Assembly (NCBI GenBank): GCA_021798115.1
Contig: JAJZYM010000001.1
Location: 170,421 to 234,420 of the forward strand
Source of the DNA: Pseudomonadota bacterium
GTDB taxonomy: Bacteria; Pseudomonadota; Gammaproteobacteria; JAKAQQ01
DNA: 64,000 bases
Direction of reading: 5' to 3'
The notes under the pieces are model-generated. The model saw nothing but the letters and a program-made list of their open reading frames with translations. It had not been told where the DNA came from and made no database searches. Both the position numbers and the translations under genes were made by a program. Of this stretch, positions 1,746-59,385 are shown in pieces; position 1 is the first letter of the stretch; each line of letters opens with the position of its first letter.

Positions 1746-2614
1746 ACGATCCCATTGACGCCACAGGCCTTCGCAAAAACTACGGGGGGATTCGCGCTCT
1801 CGACGGAATCGATTTCCACGTTCCCCAAGGGGCTTTTGTGCTGCTTGTGGGACGCAACGGAGCCGGAAAGAGCACGTTACTCCGGGCACTTTCCGGCCAA
1901 ACCTTCGCGGAGGGCACCCTCCTCGTCCTCGGCTCGGATCCACGACGGCATCCGGGGCACCCCAACGCTCGCCTGGCGTACAGGGGGGAACGCCCCACCC
2001 TGCCCGCCCGCTTCCGCATCCGCGACATTCTCGATCTCTACAGCCGCGTCCATCCCCGCTTCGATCGGCGATGTGCCGAGCAGCACCTCACACGGGCCGA
2101 CGTCCGAAATCTTGACCTTCGCCTGGACGCGCTTTCGCAAGGGACTCTGGCCAGAGTCGAAGCGGCGTTTCTTCTCGCCTCGGACGCTGAATTGGTCCTC
2201 CTCGACGAGCCTCTCGCCGGCCTCGATCCGCTCTACCGCGACCTTTTCTGGCGCGAGTTCCTTGCCGAGTATGTCGAAGGCCGGACGGTGGTGCTCGTGA
2301 CCCACCGCCCCGAGGACGTGGCCCAACTCTTCACCCATCTCGGTGTCCTCGACTCCGGCCGCCTGACGCTCTTCGAGGAGGCCGAGCATCTGCGTCGGCG
2401 CTATCGGGCGATTCTCGTCTCTGCGGAGCACAAGGCCGAGGCCGCCGCGCTTCACCCTCTCTCCGTTCGTCCACATTGGGGGCGCGACATTTACCTCTTC
2501 CGTGATCTCCCCGAGGATCTTCCATCACGTCTGGGCGAAGAGATCTCGCTAGAAATCCCTGAGCTCGTCCAAGCCCTCATGACACCGTCTTCATCAGCTG
2601 GAGTCCAACCATGA
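1742..2614 (+). CDS. ABC transporter ATP-binding protein
   Basis: Nucleotide-binding subunit of an ABC transporter. Walker A GRNGAGKST is at residues 38-46, Walker B LVLLDEP at 151-157, a GLDP D-loop follows, and the H-loop histidine is near 188. The signature motif is LSQGT (131-135), a departure from the usual LSGGQ, as often seen in YtrB/CcmA-like exporters. About 80 residues follow the nucleotide-binding domain. The gene overlaps the GntR gene before it and the permease after it by four bases each, so the three form one translation-coupled unit. The substrate cannot be read from sequence; transport of a lipid, peptide or antibiotic is possible. Confidence 0.88.
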   Translation: MNDPIDATGLRKNYGGIRALDGIDFHVPQGAFVLLVGRNGAGKSTLLRALSGQTFAEGTLLVLGSDPRRHPGHPNARLAYRGERPTLPARFRIRDILDLYSRVHPRFDRRCAEQHLTRADVRNLDLRLDALSQGTLARVEAAFLLASDAELVLLDEPLAGLDPLYRDLFWREFLAEYVEGRTVVLVTHRPEDVAQLFTHLGVLDSGRLTLFEEAEHLRRRYRAILVSAEHKAEAAALHPLSVRPHWGRDIYLFRDLPEDLPSRLGEEISLEIPELVQALMTPSSSAGVQP

Positions 2615-26671: not shown

Positions 26672-27289
26672 TCAGGGCGGCAGGGATCGGACCATGAGAA
26701 GCGGTCGGTAGCGGTGCTCGGCCAGGATGCGGCGGATCTGGTTGAGACGCGCGAGATCGGTGATGGGCCCGATGCGCACGCGGTGCCAAACCGCCCCGTT
26801 CGGAAGTTGGGCGCGGTCGATGCGGGCGCCGAGCCCGAGGAGAGCAAGTTTGGCGACGACCTTCTTCGCGCGCGCACGACGCCGGAACGATGCGACCTGA
26901 AGAATATAGCGTCCCGGGCGCAGTACGGGACGGCGATCGCGATCAAGAGTGACGTGCCGATCGCGGGTGGTGTTGATCACCTCCGGATGACGGAGACGCG
27001 CGCCCCCGACCTCGCGAAGAACATCATAGAAGGTGAAGGTATGGGCCTCCCGAAGCACCTTCGGAGGAACGGGTTGGGGACGGGAGACGGGCGGCACCGG
27101 CGGGGGGGGAGGGGCGCTCGCCACCCGCGCGACGCGGCGCACCGCCCAGACGGCAGCCCCCACGAGGAGGATGAGGAGAGCGGCGTAAGCGAGAGTGTGT
27201 GATCTCCCCTTCCTGGAGGAGGGAGGAGGGCGACGGCGTGGACGCGGAGAGGGGCGTCGCCGCACGGTGGAAGGCGAACGCCGCTTCAC
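26672..27289 (-). CDS. SPOR domain protein, FtsN-like
   Basis: A 205-residue bitopic protein: arginine-rich cytoplasmic tail, one helix at about residues 34-50, proline-rich linker and a C-terminal SPOR domain (RYILQVASFRRRARA, then RVRIGPITDLARL) that binds denuded glycan at the septum. Its place after argS and priA is that of ftsN-like genes in many gammaproteobacteria. It starts at a GTG overlapping the argS stop by four bases. Confidence 0.85.
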   Translation of the reverse strand: MKRRSPSTVRRRPSPRPRRRPPPSSRKGRSHTLAYAALLILLVGAAVWAVRRVARVASAPPPPPVPPVSRPQPVPPKVLREAHTFTFYDVLREVGGARLRHPEVINTTRDRHVTLDRDRRPVLRPGRYILQVASFRRRARAKKVVAKLALLGLGARIDRAQLPNGAVWHRVRIGPITDLARLNQIRRILAEHRYRPLLMVRSLPP

Positions 27290-28998
27290 ATCCGCTCCGG
27301 AGCCGAGACGCCGATCAGGGCGAGCCCGTGGCGGAGCACCGTCCCGACCCCCGCGGCCAACGCGAGCCTTGGGACGCGCAGCCCATCTTCGGCGTCAAGC
27401 ACCGGGGTGTGGGCGTACCAATTGTGGAACTCCCCGGCCAGATCGCGCAGGTACTGGGCGAGGATGTGCGGGGCGCGCTGGGCCGCGGCCTCGTGAAGCG
27501 TTTCCGCGTACGCGGCCAGACGCACGAGGAGACGCCTTTCGGCATCTTCCGTAAGGCGTTCCAGTCCCTGAACCTCGAGGGTGTCCACTCCGGCCTTGCG
27601 CAGAAGACCGCACACGCGGGTGTGGGCGTACTGAACGTAGTACACAGGATTGTCCGGGCTCTGACGGACGGCAAGGTCGAGATCGAAGTCGAGCGGCTGC
27701 GGGTGCGAACGCAGCACGTAAAAGAAGCGGGCGGCATCGCGACCGACTTCCTCGCGAAGCTGGCGCAACGTGACGAAATCGCCCGCGCGCGTCGACATGC
27801 GCGCCCGTTCTCCCCCACGCCAGAGGGTGACGAACTGAACGAGGACGACCTCGAGCCGCTCGGGTGGCTCGATCCCGAGCGCCTGAAGCCCTGCGTGAAG
27901 GCGTGGCGCGTAGCCGTGGTGATCGGCCCCAAAGACGTCGATGAAACGGTCGTAGCCGCGATCCGCCTTCTCGACGTGATAGGCCAGATCGGGCGTGAAG
28001 TACGTGTACGTCCCCGCGGAACGGACGAGGACACGGTCCTTCTCGTCCCCGTACGCGGTGGCCTGAAGCCAGAGCGCTCCCTCATTTTCGTAAACCGCGT
28101 GCCGCGCACGCAGCCGGTCGAGGAGGGACTCGATCACGCCCGCCGAACGAAGCTCACGCTCCGAGGTCCAGCGATCGAAGCGGACTCCAAAGGACGCCAG
28201 ATCCTCGCTGATCTCTTCCCGCATGGCCTCGAGAGCCTCGTCGAACACCTTCCGGTAGTCCTTTTCACCGAGGGCCGCGCGGGCCGCAGCCACCCAGGCG
28301 TCGACCTGGCGGTCGGGATCGCTTTCCTCTCCGACCTCCGGAAGAGGGCGGGAAAAGCGCCGTCCGTGCCGGCCGACAAGCCCACGCGCGAGATCGCCCA
28401 CGTAGTCGCCCCGGTACGCAGACTGCGGAAGCACGATCCTGACTCCCAGCTCTTCGAGATAGCGCAGCCAAACACTCAGCGTCAGAATGTCCATCTGCCG
28501 GCCGGCGTCGTTGAGGTAGTACTCGCGCTCAACGTGATGGCCAACAGCGGCGAGAAGCGCGGCCAGACTGTCACCGTAGGCGGCTCCGCGTCCGTGCCCG
28601 ACGTGCAGAGGGCCGTTGGGATTGGCCGAAACGAACTCAACGAGAATCCGCTCGGGATGGGCCACGGGAGAAACCGCACAGCCTTTGGGATCGGCGAGAA
28701 GCGCCCGAAGCTGTCCGGCAAGAAGCGTGGGGGAGAGGCGGAAATTGAGAAACCCCGGTCCGGCGACCTCGGCTGTGATCTCCCCGAGCGGCAACTCGAG
28801 GGCGGCGAGGATCCGCTCGGCGAGCCCCCGCGGAGGAAGTCCCGCGGTGCGCGCAAGACGAAGCGCAGCCGAGCTCGCGTACTCCCCGTGCACGGGATCG
28901 GCGGGACGCTCGAGCACGGGACCCCCGGGATCGACCGCTCCGAGCACCCGTTCGAGGGCGGCGCGAATCCGCTGTTCAAGGCGATGTTTGATGAGCAT
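27286..28998 (-). CDS. argS: arginyl-tRNA synthetase
   Basis: Charges tRNA-Arg; class I synthetase of 570 residues. The HIGH-box equivalent is HVGHGRG, preceded by SANPNGPLHV, and the KMSKS-equivalent region reads RMSTRAG. The C-terminal anticodon-binding domain ends in GVSAPERM. The start chosen is the ATG giving MLIKHRLEQRI, which fits the family; the longer frame would add 39 unrelated residues. Confidence 0.96.
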   Translation of the reverse strand: MLIKHRLEQRIRAALERVLGAVDPGGPVLERPADPVHGEYASSAALRLARTAGLPPRGLAERILAALELPLGEITAEVAGPGFLNFRLSPTLLAGQLRALLADPKGCAVSPVAHPERILVEFVSANPNGPLHVGHGRGAAYGDSLAALLAAVGHHVEREYYLNDAGRQMDILTLSVWLRYLEELGVRIVLPQSAYRGDYVGDLARGLVGRHGRRFSRPLPEVGEESDPDRQVDAWVAAARAALGEKDYRKVFDEALEAMREEISEDLASFGVRFDRWTSERELRSAGVIESLLDRLRARHAVYENEGALWLQATAYGDEKDRVLVRSAGTYTYFTPDLAYHVEKADRGYDRFIDVFGADHHGYAPRLHAGLQALGIEPPERLEVVLVQFVTLWRGGERARMSTRAGDFVTLRQLREEVGRDAARFFYVLRSHPQPLDFDLDLAVRQSPDNPVYYVQYAHTRVCGLLRKAGVDTLEVQGLERLTEDAERRLLVRLAAYAETLHEAAAQRAPHILAQYLRDLAGEFHNWYAHTPVLDAEDGLRVPRLALAAGVGTVLRHGLALIGVSAPERM

Positions 28999-29078
28999 GG
29001 GAAGGTCCCGGCAAGATTCGGCAATTCTAGCGCCGCCCCGCCTTCTGCCTCTTCCCCTCAGCGATTCCAACCACGGCG

Positions 29079-31124
29079 TCAGAGAAGCGTCTCGGGGTCC
29101 ATGAGTGCGCGCCAAGGTTGCCGGCGCCTCGCCTCTTCCCCTCCGAAACTTTCCTCCAGAGCCGCGATGACACGCCGCAACGTCTTGCGTCCGTCGGCCT
29201 GAAGAAGGAGGCGCGCGCGGGCACGCGCGCGACCCCGGGCGAACAGCGGGAGAGGACCGTACGCCGCAAGCGAGCCCTTCCCGTGCTTCTCCGCCTCGAC
29301 GCGGAGACGCTCGAGCGTCTCCCGAAGCGCCTCCCCGTCCGCACCGCTCGCTTCGATCAGCGCCCAGGCGGCGTAGGGCGGAAGCCGAGCCCGGCGGCGG
29401 AAGAGATCTTCAAAACGGGCATAGGCCGCGTAGGACCCCGTCAGAAGAACCCCCAGCGCTTCCTCGTCGACCCCCCGCGACTGCAGAAGAACCTCCGGGG
29501 CGAGCCCCCCCGTTCCCACAAGCCCGGCGGTCAGCACGTGGAGAGCCTGGGCGAAACGTTCACGGGCACGAAACTCCGGATTGGCGAGCGCCGCATCGGC
29601 ATCGGCCACCAGGAGGAGACTCGCGGGTGATGAGGCGAGAGCGTGCTGTAGGCGACGGGCTCCCACGAGGATCGAAGCTCCGTCGGGCCCCACGCCCCGG
29701 CGTCCCGCCTCAAACGAGCAAACGGTCTCCTCGGGAAATCGCAGACGAAGGACATGCGTCAGACGTTCGATCCCTCCTCCGCGCGCGCGCAAGGGGCCCG
29801 CGCAGGACGGGCACAGCGACGGAAGACTTTCGCGCCACCCGCAATGCGGGCAGAGGAGAGCGTCCAGGCTGAGATGAACCGCCGCATCCGCCCCGCAGCG
29901 GAGGCAGCGCGCGGTCCAGCCGCAGGCCGGACAGACGAGAGAACGCGCGTAGCCCCGCCTGTTGAGATAGACGGCTACCCGTCCGCCCGCCTCGAGATGG
30001 CGGGCCACCGCGTCCAAGGCCGCCGCGCTCAGGCCGCCCACGGTTCCGGGTCGCCGCGGGTCGACCCTCCGGAACACCGGACGAGACCGCGGAAGTGGAC
30101 TCGCCCGGCGCACCAGACGGGCGTAGCGCCGAAGACGGAGGTTCCTCACCGTCTCGAGCGAAGGCGTCGTTGAGGCCAAGACCACCCGGGCGTTGGCGAA
30201 TCGGGCCCGAACGACGGCGAGGTCGCGGGCGTGGTAGGGAACTTGCCCTTCCTGACGGTAGGCGCTCTCGTGCTCTTCATCCACGACGAAAAGCCCGAGA
30301 TCGACTCGTGGAAGGAAGACCGCCGAGCGTAGACCCACCAAAGCGGGACAAAGTCCCCGGGCCGCGTCCTGCCAAAGACGCGCCTTGTCGCGCTCGGGAA
30401 GATCCCCATGGTAGAAGAGGGCGGGAAGCCCGTCCGCCCGCAGCGCCGCCAGGATCTCCTCAGCACGCACCGCATCGGGGGCGAGGACGAGAACGCTTCG
30501 CCCGCGGCGGAGGGTGGCAGCACCGGCCTCCCGGTAAAACGCGAGCCGTTCCTGTCTGCCCTCGTCAAGGAAGACCGGCAAGCCCGGACGCTCTTCCTGG
30601 AGCGAAGCGAGAAATCTCTCGGCCGTCAGGGCGTGTGGCCCCAAGCGTTCTTCATCCTTCGCATCTCCCTCCGCCTGGCACGAAGCAGGCCTACCCTCGC
30701 GCGGGGCCACACGGAAGGACTGCCCCTCCTCCCCGGTCCCACGCGGTACACCCCGACCCAAACGTCGCAGCCCCGGAGGAAGAGCGAGACGAACGAAATC
30801 GCCTGGTGGAACGCGGTAATAGTCGGCAGCCCAGAGAACGAGGCGGAGGACCTCGGGGCTCCAGAGGGGGACTCCGTCGAGCGCCCGGACCACGGGCCTC
30901 AGACGCCCGGGCGGGGGATCCCGATCCCCTCCTCCAACCGAAAGAACCACCCCAACCCGCCTCGAGCGGCCGAGTGGGACCTCGACGCGCAGGCCGGGGA
31001 CAGCAACACCCAGCGTCTCCTCTGGCCAAAGATAAGTCAGGGGGCCCGATATACCCCACGGCAGGAGAACCCGCACCGGGTAGGCCACGGGTGCGGCCCC
31101 GGAGGGGGATGTGTCAACCGTCAC
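29079..31124 (-). CDS. priA: PriA-like primosomal protein with degenerate helicase motifs
   Basis: Replication-restart protein PriA, 681 residues in one uninterrupted frame. The N-terminal 3'-DNA-binding domain, the DEEH box (VVDEEHESAYRQE, residues 282-285), YHARDLA, and eight zinc-binding cysteines in four CxxC pairs (about residues 398-441) are retained. The Walker A site (normally GVTGSGKT) is replaced near residues 184-196 by DEGRQERLAF. Motif V (normally GTQMLAKG) reads GARRLQHA (about 488-495), and motif VI lacks the arginine-rich QVAGRAGR. ATP-driven unwinding is therefore unlikely, while DNA and DnaB-loader interactions may remain. It is separated from argS by 80 bases. Confidence 0.9.
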   Translation of the reverse strand: MTVDTSPSGAAPVAYPVRVLLPWGISGPLTYLWPEETLGVAVPGLRVEVPLGRSRRVGVVLSVGGGDRDPPPGRLRPVVRALDGVPLWSPEVLRLVLWAADYYRVPPGDFVRLALPPGLRRLGRGVPRGTGEEGQSFRVAPREGRPASCQAEGDAKDEERLGPHALTAERFLASLQEERPGLPVFLDEGRQERLAFYREAGAATLRRGRSVLVLAPDAVRAEEILAALRADGLPALFYHGDLPERDKARLWQDAARGLCPALVGLRSAVFLPRVDLGLFVVDEEHESAYRQEGQVPYHARDLAVVRARFANARVVLASTTPSLETVRNLRLRRYARLVRRASPLPRSRPVFRRVDPRRPGTVGGLSAAALDAVARHLEAGGRVAVYLNRRGYARSLVCPACGWTARCLRCGADAAVHLSLDALLCPHCGWRESLPSLCPSCAGPLRARGGGIERLTHVLRLRFPEETVCSFEAGRRGVGPDGASILVGARRLQHALASSPASLLLVADADAALANPEFRARERFAQALHVLTAGLVGTGGLAPEVLLQSRGVDEEALGVLLTGSYAAYARFEDLFRRRARLPPYAAWALIEASGADGEALRETLERLRVEAEKHGKGSLAAYGPLPLFARGRARARARLLLQADGRKTLRRVIAALEESFGGEEARRRQPWRALMDPETLL

Positions 31125-31186: not shown

Positions 31187-31792
31187 ATGATACCTTCCGT
31201 CGACGTCGCTTCCCCCGGCTTTGCCTGGAAAAGGCGGGATGCCCTTTCCCGCCGCCGACTCCGCGAGGATCTCGAGGCTTTTTTCCGCAACCACGAAAAA
31301 AAGGCTCTTCGCCTCGCCCGTTTCACGCTCGGTGAACGTGAGGATGCGCTCGACGCGGTCCAGGAAGCGATGACCCGCCTCGTGCGCTCCTACGCCGAAC
31401 GCCCCCAGGAAGAGTGGGCACCGCTTTTCTATCGGATCCTGCACAACACTGTCCACGACATCCTTCGCCGGCGACAGCGTCGGCGGACCCTGCCGCTCGC
31501 GTTCCTCGCCGGCGAACAGGAGGGCCAGGAAGCGCCCGCCGAGATCGCCGATCCCGCGGCCATCGACCCTCTCGACGCCTGCGTGCGCGAAGAATTGGCC
31601 ACCCGCCTCTCGGCCGCCCTCGTCCGGCTGCCGCGTCGCCAGCGCGAAGCCTTTGCACTGCGCATTCTGGGCGAGGCCGACGTCGCCACGACCGCCCGCA
31701 GCATGGGCTGTTCGGCAGGGAGCGTTAAAACCCACCTTTCCCGGGCGATGGACGCTCTTCGTCGCGATCTCCGAAGCGATGGCGCATCCTGA
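31187..31792 (+). CDS. ECF-type RNA polymerase sigma factor
   Basis: A 201-residue sigma70-family factor. Region 2 is LARFTLGEREDALDAVQEAMTRLVRSYA (landmark near residues 45-72), followed by a linker, and region 4 reads LPRRQREAFALR and SAGSVKTHLSRAMDALRR. The ATG at 31187 is chosen over an upstream one because the added residues look unrelated. It overlaps the next small membrane-protein gene by 14 bases. Targets are unknown; genes in this position in other proteobacteria accompany a DUF3106 protein, as here. Confidence 0.85.
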   Translation: MIPSVDVASPGFAWKRRDALSRRRLREDLEAFFRNHEKKALRLARFTLGEREDALDAVQEAMTRLVRSYAERPQEEWAPLFYRILHNTVHDILRRRQRRRTLPLAFLAGEQEGQEAPAEIADPAAIDPLDACVREELATRLSAALVRLPRRQREAFALRILGEADVATTARSMGCSAGSVKTHLSRAMDALRRDLRSDGAS

Positions 31793-32111
31793 ACGTCCCG
31801 CTCCGGACGAGGATCCCCGGCTCCCTGCCGACGACGGGGACGACGAGCGTGAACTCACCCGCCGGCGTGCACAGGCCCTGGCCGTCCTCGATGAGCGGAA
31901 AGTTCGCCGCTTCTGGCCCCCGCTCGTCCCGATCCTGGTGATTCTCGCGATCTGGCTGGCGCTGGAAGGAACGCAACCCGTTCATCCCCATGTCCGAATC
32001 ATTCCTCTCCACGGGTACGAGGTTGTCTTGACCGGCCCGTCCTCGCCCGCGTTCTACCGCCGGCTGCGTTTCTACCGGTGGCTCGCCCGTGACGAGAAAC
32101 CGCGTTCATGA
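31779..32111 (+). CDS. small single-pass membrane protein next to the sigma factor
   Basis: A 110-residue protein with an acidic N-terminus, one helix at about residues 47-63 and a short C-terminal part on the other side. Its start lies within the end of the sigma gene and its end overlaps the DUF3106 gene, so the three are coupled. It may act as an anti-sigma-like membrane partner; that is inferred from context only. I recognise no zinc-binding motif of classical anti-sigma factors. Confidence 0.6.
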   Translation: MAHPERPAPDEDPRLPADDGDDERELTRRRAQALAVLDERKVRRFWPPLVPILVILAIWLALEGTQPVHPHVRIIPLHGYEVVLTGPSSPAFYRRLRFYRWLARDEKPRS

Positions 32112-32664
32112 GACGGGCGATTCGCACTCGCCCCTGAAGAGATCGCGGAAACCCTGTTTCCGACGCTCCCGACTCCTCGGCGTCGGCCTGAGCCTTGTTC
32201 TCCTCACCGCTCCTACCGCTTTCGCCCGACCGGGAGCTCCCCTCCGCTGGAGGAATCTTCCTCCTCGGGCCCGTCGGGTCCTGCACCCTTTTGCCCCGCG
32301 CTGGCGTCACCTCCCACCCGCGCGGCGGCGGCGGCTACTGCGCGCAGCCCGTCGCTGGCTCAGATTTCCGCCCGCACGAAGAAAAGAGATGATGAAGCGC
32401 CTGCGTGCCTGGCGTCGTCTTCCGCCCCGCCTGCGTCGGCGACTGTGGAATCGCTACCGCACTTTCCGCCGTCTCCCACCCGCCGAAAGGCAGCGTATCC
32501 TGCACGCCTACCGCCTCTTCCGCCGCCTCCCACCTTGGAAACGGCGCGCGCTCCTGAGACGCTGGAAGCACCGCCACCGCCGAGGGGGGCCGGGGCGGGA
32601 TCAAAGTCTCGTCCGATATCTTCCCGTCCTGCGCATCCGCTCGCGAGCCCCGGGATCGTCTTGA
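32089..32664 (+). CDS. DUF3106-like arginine-rich repeat protein
   Basis: A 191-residue exported protein with an N-terminal hydrophobic segment (about residues 29-46) ending AFA. Residues 54-161 are six consecutive 18-residue repeats of the form W/F-R-x-L-P-P-x-x-R-R-x-L-x-x-x-x-x-x, with an aromatic first residue and a near-invariant LPP or FPP. This is the DUF3106 pattern, but far richer in arginine than usual. The start is a GTG overlapping the previous gene. With the sigma factor and the small membrane protein it forms a probable envelope-stress unit; its function is unknown. Confidence 0.7.
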   Translation: MTRNRVHETGDSHSPLKRSRKPCFRRSRLLGVGLSLVLLTAPTAFARPGAPLRWRNLPPRARRVLHPFAPRWRHLPPARRRRLLRAARRWLRFPPARRKEMMKRLRAWRRLPPRLRRRLWNRYRTFRRLPPAERQRILHAYRLFRRLPPWKRRALLRRWKHRHRRGGPGRDQSLVRYLPVLRIRSRAPGSS

Positions 32665-52614: not shown

Positions 52615-55234
<2,620 letters not shown>

Positions 55235-56281
55235 CTAAGCGATGTTCCACGTGGAACATGTCCCCAGATCACCCTTGTCTACAAGACAGCTTTCCTGTGA
55301 GGCAAGAATCAATTGGTGCTTCCCCCCTGTAATGAAACCAAAAACATCTTTCCTCGATATAGGATCAAGGTCCGATGGAAAATCATCAAAAAGGACGTGC
55401 ACATCCTTTCCTGTTACATTCGAAACAGCATCCATTGCCGCCCACATTATTCCAACTGCGAGCCTCTTTTGCTGACCCCTTGAGAGATGACCTCGTATGT
55501 CCGATGTGCCATCGACACGGATCGTAAAGGTAGAAAGCAGAGGGCTGGAAAATAGCCTTGCACCTTTGAGAATCGTCTCGCGAATTTTTTTGTAGTCGAT
55601 CTTCGGATCGAAGCCTGCTGAGTAGGAGAAGACAATACTTCGGCCCGGAAGAAGTTTTATGACATTCTGATCGAGCATCGGTACGAGGCTTGCGTAAGCC
55701 TTACTTCGGCTGGTCTCAATGACCTCAGCAGTATTTGCCGCCTGCCTCCACCAAGATTCTTCCCCTGGCATGGACATTCTCACACACTCTCTCCATTGGA
55801 TGTAAGCCTTTCTGAAGTTCCTAAGATTGGTGACGTGATCGTGTTCCACGTGGAACGCAACCCAATCCAAAACGCCTCTTTTTCTTGCAGGCTCCCCTGA
55901 GACGATATCCACAAGATCTCGATTCACATAAACAAATGGAAAACGGTTCGAAATATCAGAATGTGTAATGGTTGTCCCATTCATTTCGAGCTCGGCCTTT
56001 CTCCTCGTACCGTCGAAGCGAAAGCTGATATTGGCATGCTGCTCGTTCTTCAGGGAAAAATCTATTCTTGATTCGAATGATTTTTTACCATCAGAAATCA
56101 TCCTATTCAGGTCTCCCGTGCGAAAGGAGCGCCCTCTCATCGTGGTATAGATTGCCTCTAGGAAAGTGGTCTTCCCTGATCCGTTTGGCCCCTGTATGAG
56201 AAGATCTCTCTGAATCAGATTGGTGATCACGGGTTCGCGAAAGCAGCGGATCCCCTCCACTGCGACCCGGATGAGTGCCAT
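55235..56281 (-). CDS. recF: DNA replication and repair protein RecF
   Basis: SMC-like ATPase that loads RecA at gaps. Walker A GPNGSGKT is at residues 31-38, the signature LSRGQQKRLAVG occurs late, and Walker B is VLFDDFPSDLD. Length 348 is normal. Base and codon use are distinctly AT-richer than in most of the window (many AAA, ATT and AGA codons). Two parS-like palindromes are embedded: one encodes FHVEH in mid-gene, the other the last residues CSTWN. The start overlaps the dnaN stop. Confidence 0.95.
   Translation of the reverse strand: MALIRVAVEGIRCFREPVITNLIQRDLLIQGPNGSGKTTFLEAIYTTMRGRSFRTGDLNRMISDGKKSFESRIDFSLKNEQHANISFRFDGTRRKAELEMNGTTITHSDISNRFPFVYVNRDLVDIVSGEPARKRGVLDWVAFHVEHDHVTNLRNFRKAYIQWRECVRMSMPGEESWWRQAANTAEVIETSRSKAYASLVPMLDQNVIKLLPGRSIVFSYSAGFDPKIDYKKIRETILKGARLFSSPLLSTFTIRVDGTSDIRGHLSRGQQKRLAVGIMWAAMDAVSNVTGKDVHVLFDDFPSDLDPISRKDVFGFITGGKHQLILASQESCLVDKGDLGTCSTWNIA
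55243..55258. other. parS-like centromere site 1, at the recF 3' end
   Basis: TGTTCCACGTGGAACA is a perfect 16-bp palindrome and matches the ParB-binding parS consensus found near the origin in many bacteria, including Pseudomonas. It lies within the final codons of recF. Confidence 0.85.
55842..55857. other. parS-like centromere site 2, inside recF
   Basis: The 14-bp palindrome GTTCCACGTGGAAC (55843-55856) is identical to the core of the first site 600 bases away. The outer base pair is not symmetrical. It lies in the coding frame of recF. Confidence 0.8.
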
Positions 56282-57396
56282 CAGATGCGAAGGGGCATAA
56301 TCACACTCTTTTGCTCTCCCTTGCCTGTGCCCGGCTCGAGAATGCTGCTTGCCGCTGCCGTTGTCATTCGAAAAACCCCTCTCTCATCTCTTATGCTGGA
56401 CAATGCCTCGAGTATGTAGTCTGCATTGAAGGAAATCTCGATGTCTTCTCCCTGTTGCTCTACGTCGACTGTCTCCTCCGATATATCGCTTTGTTTGTTC
56501 TTGGCCAACACGCGCAACACACTGCTGGAAAGAAGGAAGTTGACAGCACCATATTTTTCTCCGACGAGAGCGCGCGCATGCTTGACTGATTCCCTTAAGT
56601 CATTAATATTGAAATAAAAACACTTGTCTGGCGCGACGGGAATCACTCTTTCGTAATCCGGGTAATCCTTGCCAGGCATGATGCGACTGGAGAGTCTCAG
56701 GTCTCTTGTCAGAAACCTGATGGTATTTTCACTGAGAGCGATTGTGACCGTAGTGTCAGTTAGTGTTGCCAGAATTTTTTCCATTTCCAGGACGGCCTTG
56801 CGTGGAAGTATGAGATTGGCGCTCTCTCCCGTACTTTTGACTTCGGCTTCATCCATCGAGAGTCTATGTCCGTCCGTCGCAACCGCACGCAATCTTCCAT
56901 CTCGCAGGACGAGGAGCATACCGTTGAGATAGTGCCTCGAGTCGTTCTGTGCCATGGCATACGAGGTGGCACGAAAGAGGGAAAGAAGTCGCTCTGATGA
57001 AATTTCGAGCGTGCCCCTTGCCTCCTCCGCCTTCATGACAGGGAAGTCTTCTGCTGGAAGAGTCGCGATAACGAAACGGCTCTTGCCACTGCTCATCTGG
57101 ATGCGGTCCTGGCCCTGATCCTGTCGAAGTTCAAAGACGGCTTCTTCAGGGAAACTTCTCAGGATTTCGTAAAACTTCCTTCCTTGGACGAGGACTCGGA
57201 AATCCTCCCCCGTGACATCGAGAGACTGCTGCGCTTCCAGCTCAACCTCGCTGTCTGTTGCACAGGCCTTGAGATGAGATCCCCTTTTGTAGAGAAGAAC
57301 ATGGCTCAGTACGGGAAGTGGTGCCCGAGTATCAACGACACCAAGGACATGTTGAAGAATTCGGCTGATCTGAGAGTTGACAATATTCATCTGCAT
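56281..57396 (-). CDS. dnaN: DNA polymerase III beta sliding clamp
   Basis: Ring-shaped processivity clamp, 371 residues with three repeats of the clamp fold. LPVLSHVLL, the GHRLS segment (VATDGHRLSM) and the closing VIMPLRI are the usual landmarks. The start ATG has GAGG eight bases upstream. The order dnaA-dnaN-recF-gyrB is the standard origin arrangement. Composition is AT-richer than most of the window. Confidence 0.96.
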   Translation of the reverse strand: MQMNIVNSQISRILQHVLGVVDTRAPLPVLSHVLLYKRGSHLKACATDSEVELEAQQSLDVTGEDFRVLVQGRKFYEILRSFPEEAVFELRQDQGQDRIQMSSGKSRFVIATLPAEDFPVMKAEEARGTLEISSERLLSLFRATSYAMAQNDSRHYLNGMLLVLRDGRLRAVATDGHRLSMDEAEVKSTGESANLILPRKAVLEMEKILATLTDTTVTIALSENTIRFLTRDLRLSSRIMPGKDYPDYERVIPVAPDKCFYFNINDLRESVKHARALVGEKYGAVNFLLSSSVLRVLAKNKQSDISEETVDVEQQGEDIEISFNADYILEALSSIRDERGVFRMTTAAASSILEPGTGKGEQKSVIMPLRI

Positions 57397-57420
57397 GGAG
57401 AGAACCTCATCAGAATGTAA

Positions 57421-57606
57421 CGGGTATCAGTAAAGATTCACTTATAGAAACGTCAGCTGTAGTGGAATCTGTGGACAAGTTAGGAGGCAATGTAGAGGAT
57501 CTGCTGTTTGTATGGTTGTGTTCGACATGATGGATGTGGAAGATCTGTGAATATCCTGAAGGGTAATGGCGCCAGACGACATGGGAAAAAACTTATTCAC
57601 AGCTTG
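57421..57606. other. DnaA-box cluster between dnaA and dnaN (candidate oriC part)
   Basis: Three DnaA-box-like 9-mers occur in 190 bases: TTATTCACA (57593-57601, exact to TTATnCACA), and on the other strand TTGTCCACA (57470-57478) and ATATTCACA (57546-57554), each one base off. They could serve initiation or autoregulation of dnaA-dnaN. Whether this is the unwinding site itself cannot be decided from sequence. Confidence 0.55.
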
Positions 57607-58944
57607 TCAACCCGTGATTATACGGAGCAGATTTTGATAATCTTCCTGGACCTTGGGGTCTGATTTACGTAATTCTTTGATCTTCTTGGAGGCATGAAGG
57701 ACGGTGGTGTGATCGCGGCCGCCAAAAGCGTCACCGATTTCCGGCAGGCTGTGGTGCGTGAGCTCTTTTGCGAGAGCCATCGCCATCTGCCGTGGTCGAG
57801 CCACAGAGCGGCTTCGGTTCTTCGAGTTGATGTCCGAGATTCGTATGCGATAGTAATTGGCGACAGTCTTCTGTATGTTGTCGAGGCTGATGAGCCTTTG
57901 CTGCAAGGAAAGCAGATCGTGAAGAGCCAGTTTGGTCGTTTCGATATCGATGGGCTTGGAGGTGAACCGGGCGTGGGCAATCACGCGGTGGAGTGCCCCC
58001 TCCAGTTCGCGTACGTTTGAGCGAATCCTCTCTGAAATAAAAAAAGCGACCTCGTGCGGCAGGCACAGACCGAGTCGTTCAGCCTTGGTCGTGAGAATCG
58101 CAACACAAGTCTCGATCTCAGGGGGTTCGATGGCGACAGTCAGTCCCCAGCCAAAGCGGGATTTGAGGCGTTCCTCGAGGCCGTCAACCTCTTTCGGATA
58201 GCGATCGCAGCTGAGGACTACCTGCTGACGGGCCTCGAGAAGGGTATTGAAGGTGTGAAAAAACTCTTCCTGCGTTCTCTCTTTTCCCGAGAAGAACTGA
58301 ATATCGTCAATGAGGAGCATGTCGAGGGAGCGGTAACGTCGCTTGAATTCCCCCATCGTGTTGCTTTGCAGCGCCACAACCATATCGCCCACAAAGCGTT
58401 CCGAATGAACATAGGCCACGCGACGGTTGGAATCCTTGCCGAGAAAATGTTGGCCAATCGCGTGCATGAGATGCGTTTTGCCCAGACCGACACCGCCATA
58501 GACAAACAGGGGGTTGTAAGCCTTGCCCGGGTTGTCGGCAACGGTGTGAGCGGCCGCACGTGCAATCCTGTTGCACCCACCTTCGACGAAGTTGGCAAAG
58601 ATGTAATCGCCATTAAGCGGACTTCCTGGGATCGGGAACGCTGCAGGCTCGTCACCCCTTCGAGCGACTTGACCACGCACGCGGGTTGGGGGTTTCTCGT
58701 TCGAGCCGACGACAACGGAGACGTCGAGAGTTTGACCCGCGACGTGGGAAATGACCGTGTGCAGGCGTGGAAGGTAGTTCTCGCGGACACGGTCCGCGAC
58801 CAAGGCGTTGGGCGCCTGCAGAGAAAAAGTTCCATCGGAAAGGCGGGCCTGGAGCGGTCGCAGCCAAAGTGTGATTTCCCGCTCCCCGACATCCCGTTCG
58901 AGGATGCGGAGACATTCGTTCCAGAGCACGCGGGAATCGGTCAC
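57607..58944 (-). CDS. dnaA: chromosomal replication initiator DnaA
   Basis: AAA+ initiator that opens oriC. The GTG at 58944 gives 445 residues and the usual N-terminal domain ([26 protein letters not shown] as landmark). Walker A GGVGLGKT is at 150-157, Walker [10 protein letters not shown] follows, and the C-terminal DNA-binding signature is [15 protein letters not shown]. The open frame continues upstream to 59328, but that part lacks family similarity. Confidence 0.96.
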
Positions 58945-59250
58945 AGGGCTTGGCGGGACAGGTCGGGGTGGAGAAGTGTAGACCCTTGCCCGATGGCGGG
59001 CAAGTCGGAACCAAGCGTGCTTGGATATCTCGAAGCTAAGACACGAAGGATCCTTGTGAAAGCGTGAGGAGAGCGAAGGTGAGCCTTTGGCACGGAGGGC
59101 GGCCACAACACGCGCAGCGGCGCGTTCGACAGTGGCACGTTGGTTAATCATGATGTAAAATGCGCGTCCCGTGGAATAGTTTTCCGGTACCCACACAAAG
59201 AAACGTGGGGGATGCCTCTGGCGGGGAGTCGAGTTATTGAGGATGTGGAC
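58945..59250. other. divergent region between dnaA and rpmH
   Basis: About 306 bases. I found no clear DnaA box here with one mismatch or fewer. A TAAAAT (-10-like) near 59155 faces rpmH, without a good -35. I see no gene and no repeat. Confidence 0.4.
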
Positions 59251-59385
59251 ATGAAACGCACCTACCAGCCCAGTCGGTTGCATCGAGCCCGCACGCACGG
59301 ATTCCGTGCGCGCATGGCGACTCGGCAAGGACGTGCTGTCCTTAGTGCCCGGCGGAGCAAGGGACGCAAACGTCTCATTCCCTGA
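59251..59385 (+). CDS. rpmH: 50S ribosomal protein L34
   Basis: A 44-residue, very basic ribosomal protein. [22 protein letters not shown] and the ending GRKRLIP are the L34 signature. A GAGGA ribosome site precedes the ATG. It is divergent from dnaA and heads the rnpA-yidD-yidC-mnmE-mnmG run. Confidence 0.97.

Follow-up and report, generated by a model that had tools for sequence, protein, structure and literature searches.

What does a replication restart protein do once its motor has been taken away? The helicase motifs of PriA are almost universally conserved, yet the helicase activity is dispensable in laboratory Escherichia coli, and the purpose of the motor is an old question. A first-pass annotation of a 64,000-nucleotide stretch of a proteobacterial genome (here called the window) had singled out a priA gene in one clean reading frame, with Walker A, motif V and motif VI erased, and had read it as a likely pseudohelicase that arose by independent loss and relied for restart on PriB/PriC, RecG or another helicase. 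We examined this gene in the window's own genome (G000), in two further genomes of the same genus, one of uncultured proteobacteria (G007 and G008), and in six genomes from two sister genera of the same family.

The gene product is a genuine PriA

The gene and its neighbors are as follows:

29079..31124, minus strand: priA, 681 aa from a GTG start, encoding a PriA stripped of ATP motifs (open frame, TIGR00595, Foldseek)
31187..31792, plus strand: ECF-type sigma factor gene, divergent neighbor of priA (PRK09047 [NCBIfam], 188.8 bits; synteny with sister genera)
27286..29055, minus strand: argS, downstream of priA (TIGR00456, 419 bits; synteny with sister genera)
26672..27289, minus strand: SPOR/FtsN-like gene (TIGR02223, E 4.7e-9, below cut-off; synteny with sister genera)

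The priA frame is indeed clean, with 681 codons open from end to end at 29079-31124 on the minus strand. Its product passes the NCBIfam priA model TIGR00595 (256.5 bits against a cut-off of 230.35), and both Pfam PriA domains, PF17764 and PF18074, lie above their gathering scores. The long PRK05580 subtype models score it under their own cut-offs, and the scores of 383 bits for PRK05580 and 132 bits for PRK14873 assign it to the canonical type rather than to the actinobacterial type (PRK14873), which, according to its database annotation, has lost the helicase motifs. The solved structures related to it by sequence are PriA chains only, and its AlphaFold model (pLDDT 77, pTM 0.78) finds E. coli PriA (8fak_H) as the top Foldseek match, with an E value of 5e-51 and a TM score of 0.74. 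The gene order sigma factor-priA-argS-SPOR is common to the genus and its sister genera. By family cut-offs, fold and gene order, the 681-aa product is a genuine PriA.

Elsewhere in the window, a gyrB-recF-dnaN-dnaA cluster occupies 52615-59328 on the minus strand, with the recF P-loop (GPNGSGKT) intact, indicating that the window adjoins a probable replication origin. The plus strand at 32089-32664 encodes a short protein rich in Arg, Pro and Leu that contains tandem R-LPP-type repeats (RWRNLPPRARRVLHPFAPRWRHLPPARRRRLL...); in G007 a similar protein adjoins the EnvC-like gene.

Missing ATP motifs and winged helix

Residues were compared with 33 other PriAs, with positions given in E. coli PriA numbering. 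The following elements are degenerate or replaced:

30534..30566, minus strand: degenerate Walker A, residues 187-197, DEGRQ-ERLAFY against the consensus GVTGSGKTEVY (alignment)
30459..30482, minus strand: degenerate motif Ia, APDAVRAE against the consensus VPEIxLTP (alignment, residue map)
29631..29666, minus strand: degenerate motif V, VGARRLQHALAS (alignment, residue map)
29505..29537, minus strand: degenerate motif VI, VLTAGLVGTGG against the consensus QVAGRAGRG, both arginine fingers gone
30639..30770, minus strand: short disordered linker in the winged-helix position, residues 119-162 (alignment gap and model)

In Walker A, K230 and T231 of the E. coli protein are replaced by Arg193 and Leu194, and S228 is deleted, leaving the P-loop one residue short. 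Motif V reads GARRLQHALAS where E. coli has GTQMLAKGHHF; the E. coli counterpart of motif VI is QVAGRAGRA. The Q-motif glutamine (Q203) is absent as well. Seven residues invariant in the 33 panel proteins (K230, T231, K544, G545, Q580, R584 and R587) are all changed in each of the three genus genomes. Of 111 columns that are near-invariant, 40 differ in every genus member, and these losses concentrate in the ATP motifs (19 of 29 columns there and 21 of 82 outside them; Fisher P = 1.7e-4). The Walker A GxTGSGKT, motif V and motif VI arginine fingers that an active PriA helicase requires are thus missing, and we infer from these replacements that the ATPase activity was lost.

The alignment with E. 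coli PriA therefore confirms the loss of Walker A, motif V and motif VI reported by the first-pass annotation, at matching coordinates for motifs V and VI. That list was incomplete, since the protein has lost motifs Q and Ia as well, together with its winged-helix domain, and the word "erased" is slightly strong, since G007 retains a recognizable P-loop relic (DGAAG-GRLALY). A shifted but intact Walker A would have spoken against the loss; none exists anywhere in the protein, and the other reading frames near 30534-30566 show none either, the one-residue deletion and the K-to-R replacement being common to the three genomes. The agreement of three separate genomes also excludes an assembly error behind the motif loss.

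The winged-helix domain of E. coli and Klebsiella PriA, which we did not treat as a requirement for family membership, is replaced by an unstructured linker at residues 121-162, with a model pLDDT of 23 to 32 across residues 121-160. Asp17 of E. coli PriA, described as crucial to 3' end recognition (PMC4129139), is Thr30 here. This replacement is weakened as a decisive sign by the panel, in which 27 of 33 proteins have Asp and six do not, two of them carrying Thr.

Parts that are retained

The remaining architecture is largely that of PriA:

30777..31073, minus strand: 3'-DNA-binding domain, residues 18-116 (PF17764, E 3.8e-19, above cut-off)
30270..30281, minus strand: motif II/Walker B DEEH, residues 282-285, intact (alignment)
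30216..30236, minus strand: YHARDLA, end of the aromatic-rich loop, intact (alignment)
30150..30176, minus strand: motif III, ASTTPSLET, mostly intact (alignment, residue map)
29943..29963, minus strand: motif IV, NRRGYAR, intact (alignment)
29802..29933, minus strand: cysteine-rich region with eight Zn-binding cysteines, residues 398-441 (alignment)
29124..29378, minus strand: PriA C-terminal domain (PF18074, 30.8 bits, cut-off 26.9), with the SSB-tail arginine at R646

The retention of DEEH, YHARDLA and the eight cysteines, noticed at first pass, holds in the alignment, with all eight cysteines in each of the three genus genomes. DEEH is likewise intact in all three, so the Walker B departure of the Deinococcus type is not found. 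The Trp and Tyr at E. coli positions 83 and 87 are preserved. R646 aligns with the arginine numbered R697 in Klebsiella and R698 in E. coli, a one-residue offset taken from our own alignment of both numberings; in Klebsiella PriA, R697 binds the SSB tail (PMC4129139). The SSB of the window genome terminates in DDIPF.

Decay in place under purifying selection

The ATP motifs are lost in all three genus genomes, whereas all six sister-genus genomes encode an intact PriA of 744 to 767 aa. In the PriA tree the genus is monophyletic (100/100) on a long stem (length 3.76) and groups with the sister genera (80/83). Since the sister genera have their PriA intact with the gene order unchanged, the loss happened in place and once, and the ancestral priA decayed where it stands. 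Together with the fit to PRK05580 and not PRK14873, this intact PriA at the same locus in the sister genera favors the independent loss proposed at first. Besides its relic P-loop, G007 still has the GT of motif V. The K-to-R and T-to-L replacements and the deletion thus seem to have preceded the wider erosion in G000 and G008.

Is the gene still under selection? Its frame stays open in three species whose proteins are as little as 72% identical (one copy was assembled across two contigs). Its dN/dS is 0.22 for the pair G000 and G008 and 0.20 for G000 and G007, compared to 0.19 and 0.18 in two sister-genus pairs with intact PriAs, which speaks against a pseudogene. The ratio falls to 0.04-0.10 in the zinc region and to ~0.09 over residues 485-545, the stretch that replaces motifs V-VI; this stretch is conserved within the genus and is itself constrained. 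A general acceleration of PriA is modest only: its arm ratio of 2.59 is the highest among nine genes, with controls at 0.85-2.50. The reading of the gene as a probable pseudohelicase is thus supported, with its function maintained by selection.

Rarity of the loss

We scored 370 genomes of the class and a phylum sample of 398 genomes with the priA model. In the class survey, by far the weakest full-length PriA is that of the two genus members included (E ~1e-76). The other weak scorers of the class that were located and read are split genes, fragments or a divergent PriA whose Walker A is intact: in G218, G268 and G308 priA is divided between contigs or truncated where a contig ends, whereas G237 holds a C-terminal fragment only. 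The divergent case, a 658-aa PriA in G014 (L062, G014:C14), adjoins argS and has an altered motif VI (QLGGRSTRH); its motor may perhaps have been weakened along a route of its own.

The window genome again stands out as a low scorer in the phylum sample, where further cases may exist among a handful of genomes with low or missing scores that were not located. Five high-completeness genomes (G732, G546, G643, G400 and G457) have unusually low PriA scores, with E values of 1e-100 to 1e-123, which could reflect split genes or further motif losses. In the class survey, all three sampled members of one genus (G098, G204 and G289; 99% completeness) and about 15 other near-complete genomes are without a PriA-level match, their best priA-model E values being about 1e-12 to 1e-20, or none. 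Complete loss of PriA is possible in these genomes.

Restart partners

With which partners could such a protein restart replication? No second priA, which would have undercut the pseudohelicase reading, was found in the near-complete assembly of the window genome. PriC was undetected in all nine genomes of the order; matches to the PriB model were weak and below cut-off, falling in the SSB gene in the window genome and likewise reading as SSB in the sister genera. The suggested reliance on PriB/PriC is therefore not supported. A search with the IstB/DnaC model identified no DnaC-like gene in the window genome, its matches being DnaA (about 58.2-58.5 kb of the window) and two weak, below-cut-off matches in larger frames; the match in G008 is a fragment.

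Pfam DciA was found in five of the six sister genomes and in none of the three genus genomes. Loss of DciA along with the helicase, as this search would have it, was rejected: between lpxC and secA in G000 and G008, a convergent ORF occupies the DciA position and is conserved in G007 too.

L115, about 2008..2433 (G000:C26), minus strand: diverged DciA candidate between lpxC and secA (synteny, weak similarity)

The candidate aligns weakly with sister DciAs (E 0.046) and has no Pfam match; by synteny, a diverged DciA appears to be present in the genus. DciA evolves fast in the sister genera too (arm ratio 1.31), so no co-divergence of PriA and DciA is claimed. The recG gene, which the first-pass annotation had suggested searching for, is present; RecG and one UvrD-type helicase are encoded intact, and either could possibly act as a helper helicase in restart.

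A probable passive platform for restart

Since the ATP motifs are lost while the gene remains under selection, this PriA is probably a passive landing platform and not a DNA-unwinding machine. We consider it quite probable that the only PriA detected in the genus is an ATP-independent pseudohelicase, decayed in place and held by purifying selection, that binds forks and SSB and helps to recruit DnaB, the replicative helicase, DciA being the likeliest partner. The protein would bind abandoned forks and SSB without ATP and serve as a platform for DnaB, whose handover would most likely involve the loader DciA, here the putative diverged orthologue between lpxC and secA. Any clearing of the lagging strand would come from spontaneous fraying or from another helicase, RecG or UvrD.

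Several precedents bear on this scheme. The K-to-R replacement at Walker A alone abolishes the ATPase and helicase of E. coli PriA, and the PriA of Deinococcus radiodurans with the same replacement neither hydrolyzes ATP nor unwinds DNA but does bind single-stranded DNA and forks, with evidence that it contacts DnaB physically (PMC4504706). In E. coli, the PriA motor is dispensable for the PriA/PriB route and needed for the PriA/PriC route, and a PriA with a dead helicase has severe defects when PriB is missing (PMC9713433); because the genus seems to be without PriB, this precedent is not directly transferable. The priA300 allele removes unwanted D-loop unwinding in the absence of RecG (PMC4752480). 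For bacteria that have no DnaC, a joint action of DciA and PriA has been proposed (PMC9825169). Further points count against the platform reading: the preserved DEEH and motifs III and IV make a noncanonical nucleotide site possible, DciA is assigned by position and weak similarity, and Asp17, which reads the 3' end, is also lost. A more far-reaching version, which we regard as speculative and rather doubtful, is a minimal ATP-free PriA-DciA loading pathway without PriB, PriC or DnaC, in which PriA would have shed its motor, the duplex-binding winged helix and Asp17, and the former motif V/VI surface would now dock DnaB or DciA.

Could the protein have left replication restart altogether, for instance as an SSB-associated structural or regulatory protein? 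The loss of the ATPase motifs, winged helix and Asp17, the undetected PriB/PriC partners and the newly conserved stretch in place of motifs V-VI would all fit such a change. We nevertheless find it unlikely, since the gene is the single-copy orthologue in the ancestral locus, keeps the 3'-DNA-binding domain, the C-terminal domain and the SSB-contact arginine, and sits in a near-complete genome without another PriA for restart. We see slightly less room still for a weak motor that binds or hydrolyzes ATP through a remodeled site, with Arg for the Walker A Lys and DEEH kept. DEEH, motif III and motif IV are preserved, and the model still predicts the strand-loop-helix of the P-loop; however, E. 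coli PriA is inactivated by K to R at the equivalent position (PMC4504706), and the loss of the Thr, motif Ia, the motif V Lys-Gly and both arginine fingers leaves no complete nucleotide pocket or finger.

A dying pseudogene, its function wholly lost and its persistence due only to genome kinship, is very improbable. The long stem branch of the genus, the highest arm ratio among the nine genes and a P-loop that is more decayed in G000 and G008 than in G007 are what such a gene might show, but the frame open across three species, the eight preserved cysteines and the low dN/dS, both overall and in the zinc and motif V-VI stretches, argue against it. Horizontal acquisition of a pseudohelicase of the Deinococcus or actinobacterial type, a source suggested by the divergent PriAs of Deinococcus (PMC4504706) and actinobacteria (PMC1193525), has hardly any likelihood, because the PRK05580 score far exceeds that of PRK14873, the protein clusters with its own sister genera, and the gene order is the same as theirs. 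The ATP-independent platform is the reading that we retain. The loss at genus level beside intact sisters, with no detectable PriB/PriC, offers a natural experiment on which parts of PriA selection keeps without the motor, and points to the proposed PriA-DciA partnership.

Comparison with known PriA proteins

The PriA of the window shares with those of E. coli and Klebsiella the 3'-DNA-binding domain, two helicase lobes, the cysteine-rich region, the C-terminal domain and the fold, at 31% overall identity to E. coli PriA. It differs from them in being without the ATP-binding and arginine-finger residues and the winged helix, in the replacement of Asp17, and in length (681 versus 732 aa). The E. 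coli allele priA300 (PriA K230R) carries K to R at the same residue; it is, however, a laboratory point mutant, intact in the rest of the protein, that leans on PriB (PMC9713433), which was not found in the genus. Actinobacterial PriA is smaller and very divergent (PMC1193525), and the PriA studied here is also shortened and divergent.

The PriA of D. radiodurans was shown biochemically to be a pseudohelicase (Lopper et al. 2015, PMC4504706). As in that protein, the Walker A Lys is replaced by Arg and the fork-binding domains are kept; the Deinococcus pattern of a replaced Walker A Lys in a PriA-like protein under selection is found here (K to R, dN/dS about 0.2). The PriAs of Deinococcus-Thermus depart from the consensus at both Walker A and Walker B, whereas the present one keeps DEEH; it has lost motifs Q, Ia, V and VI and the winged helix, and belongs to a different phylum with intact sister genera. 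PriA pseudohelicases are thus already known as a kind, and this genus is an independent and differently stripped case, proteobacterial and without detected PriB or PriC.
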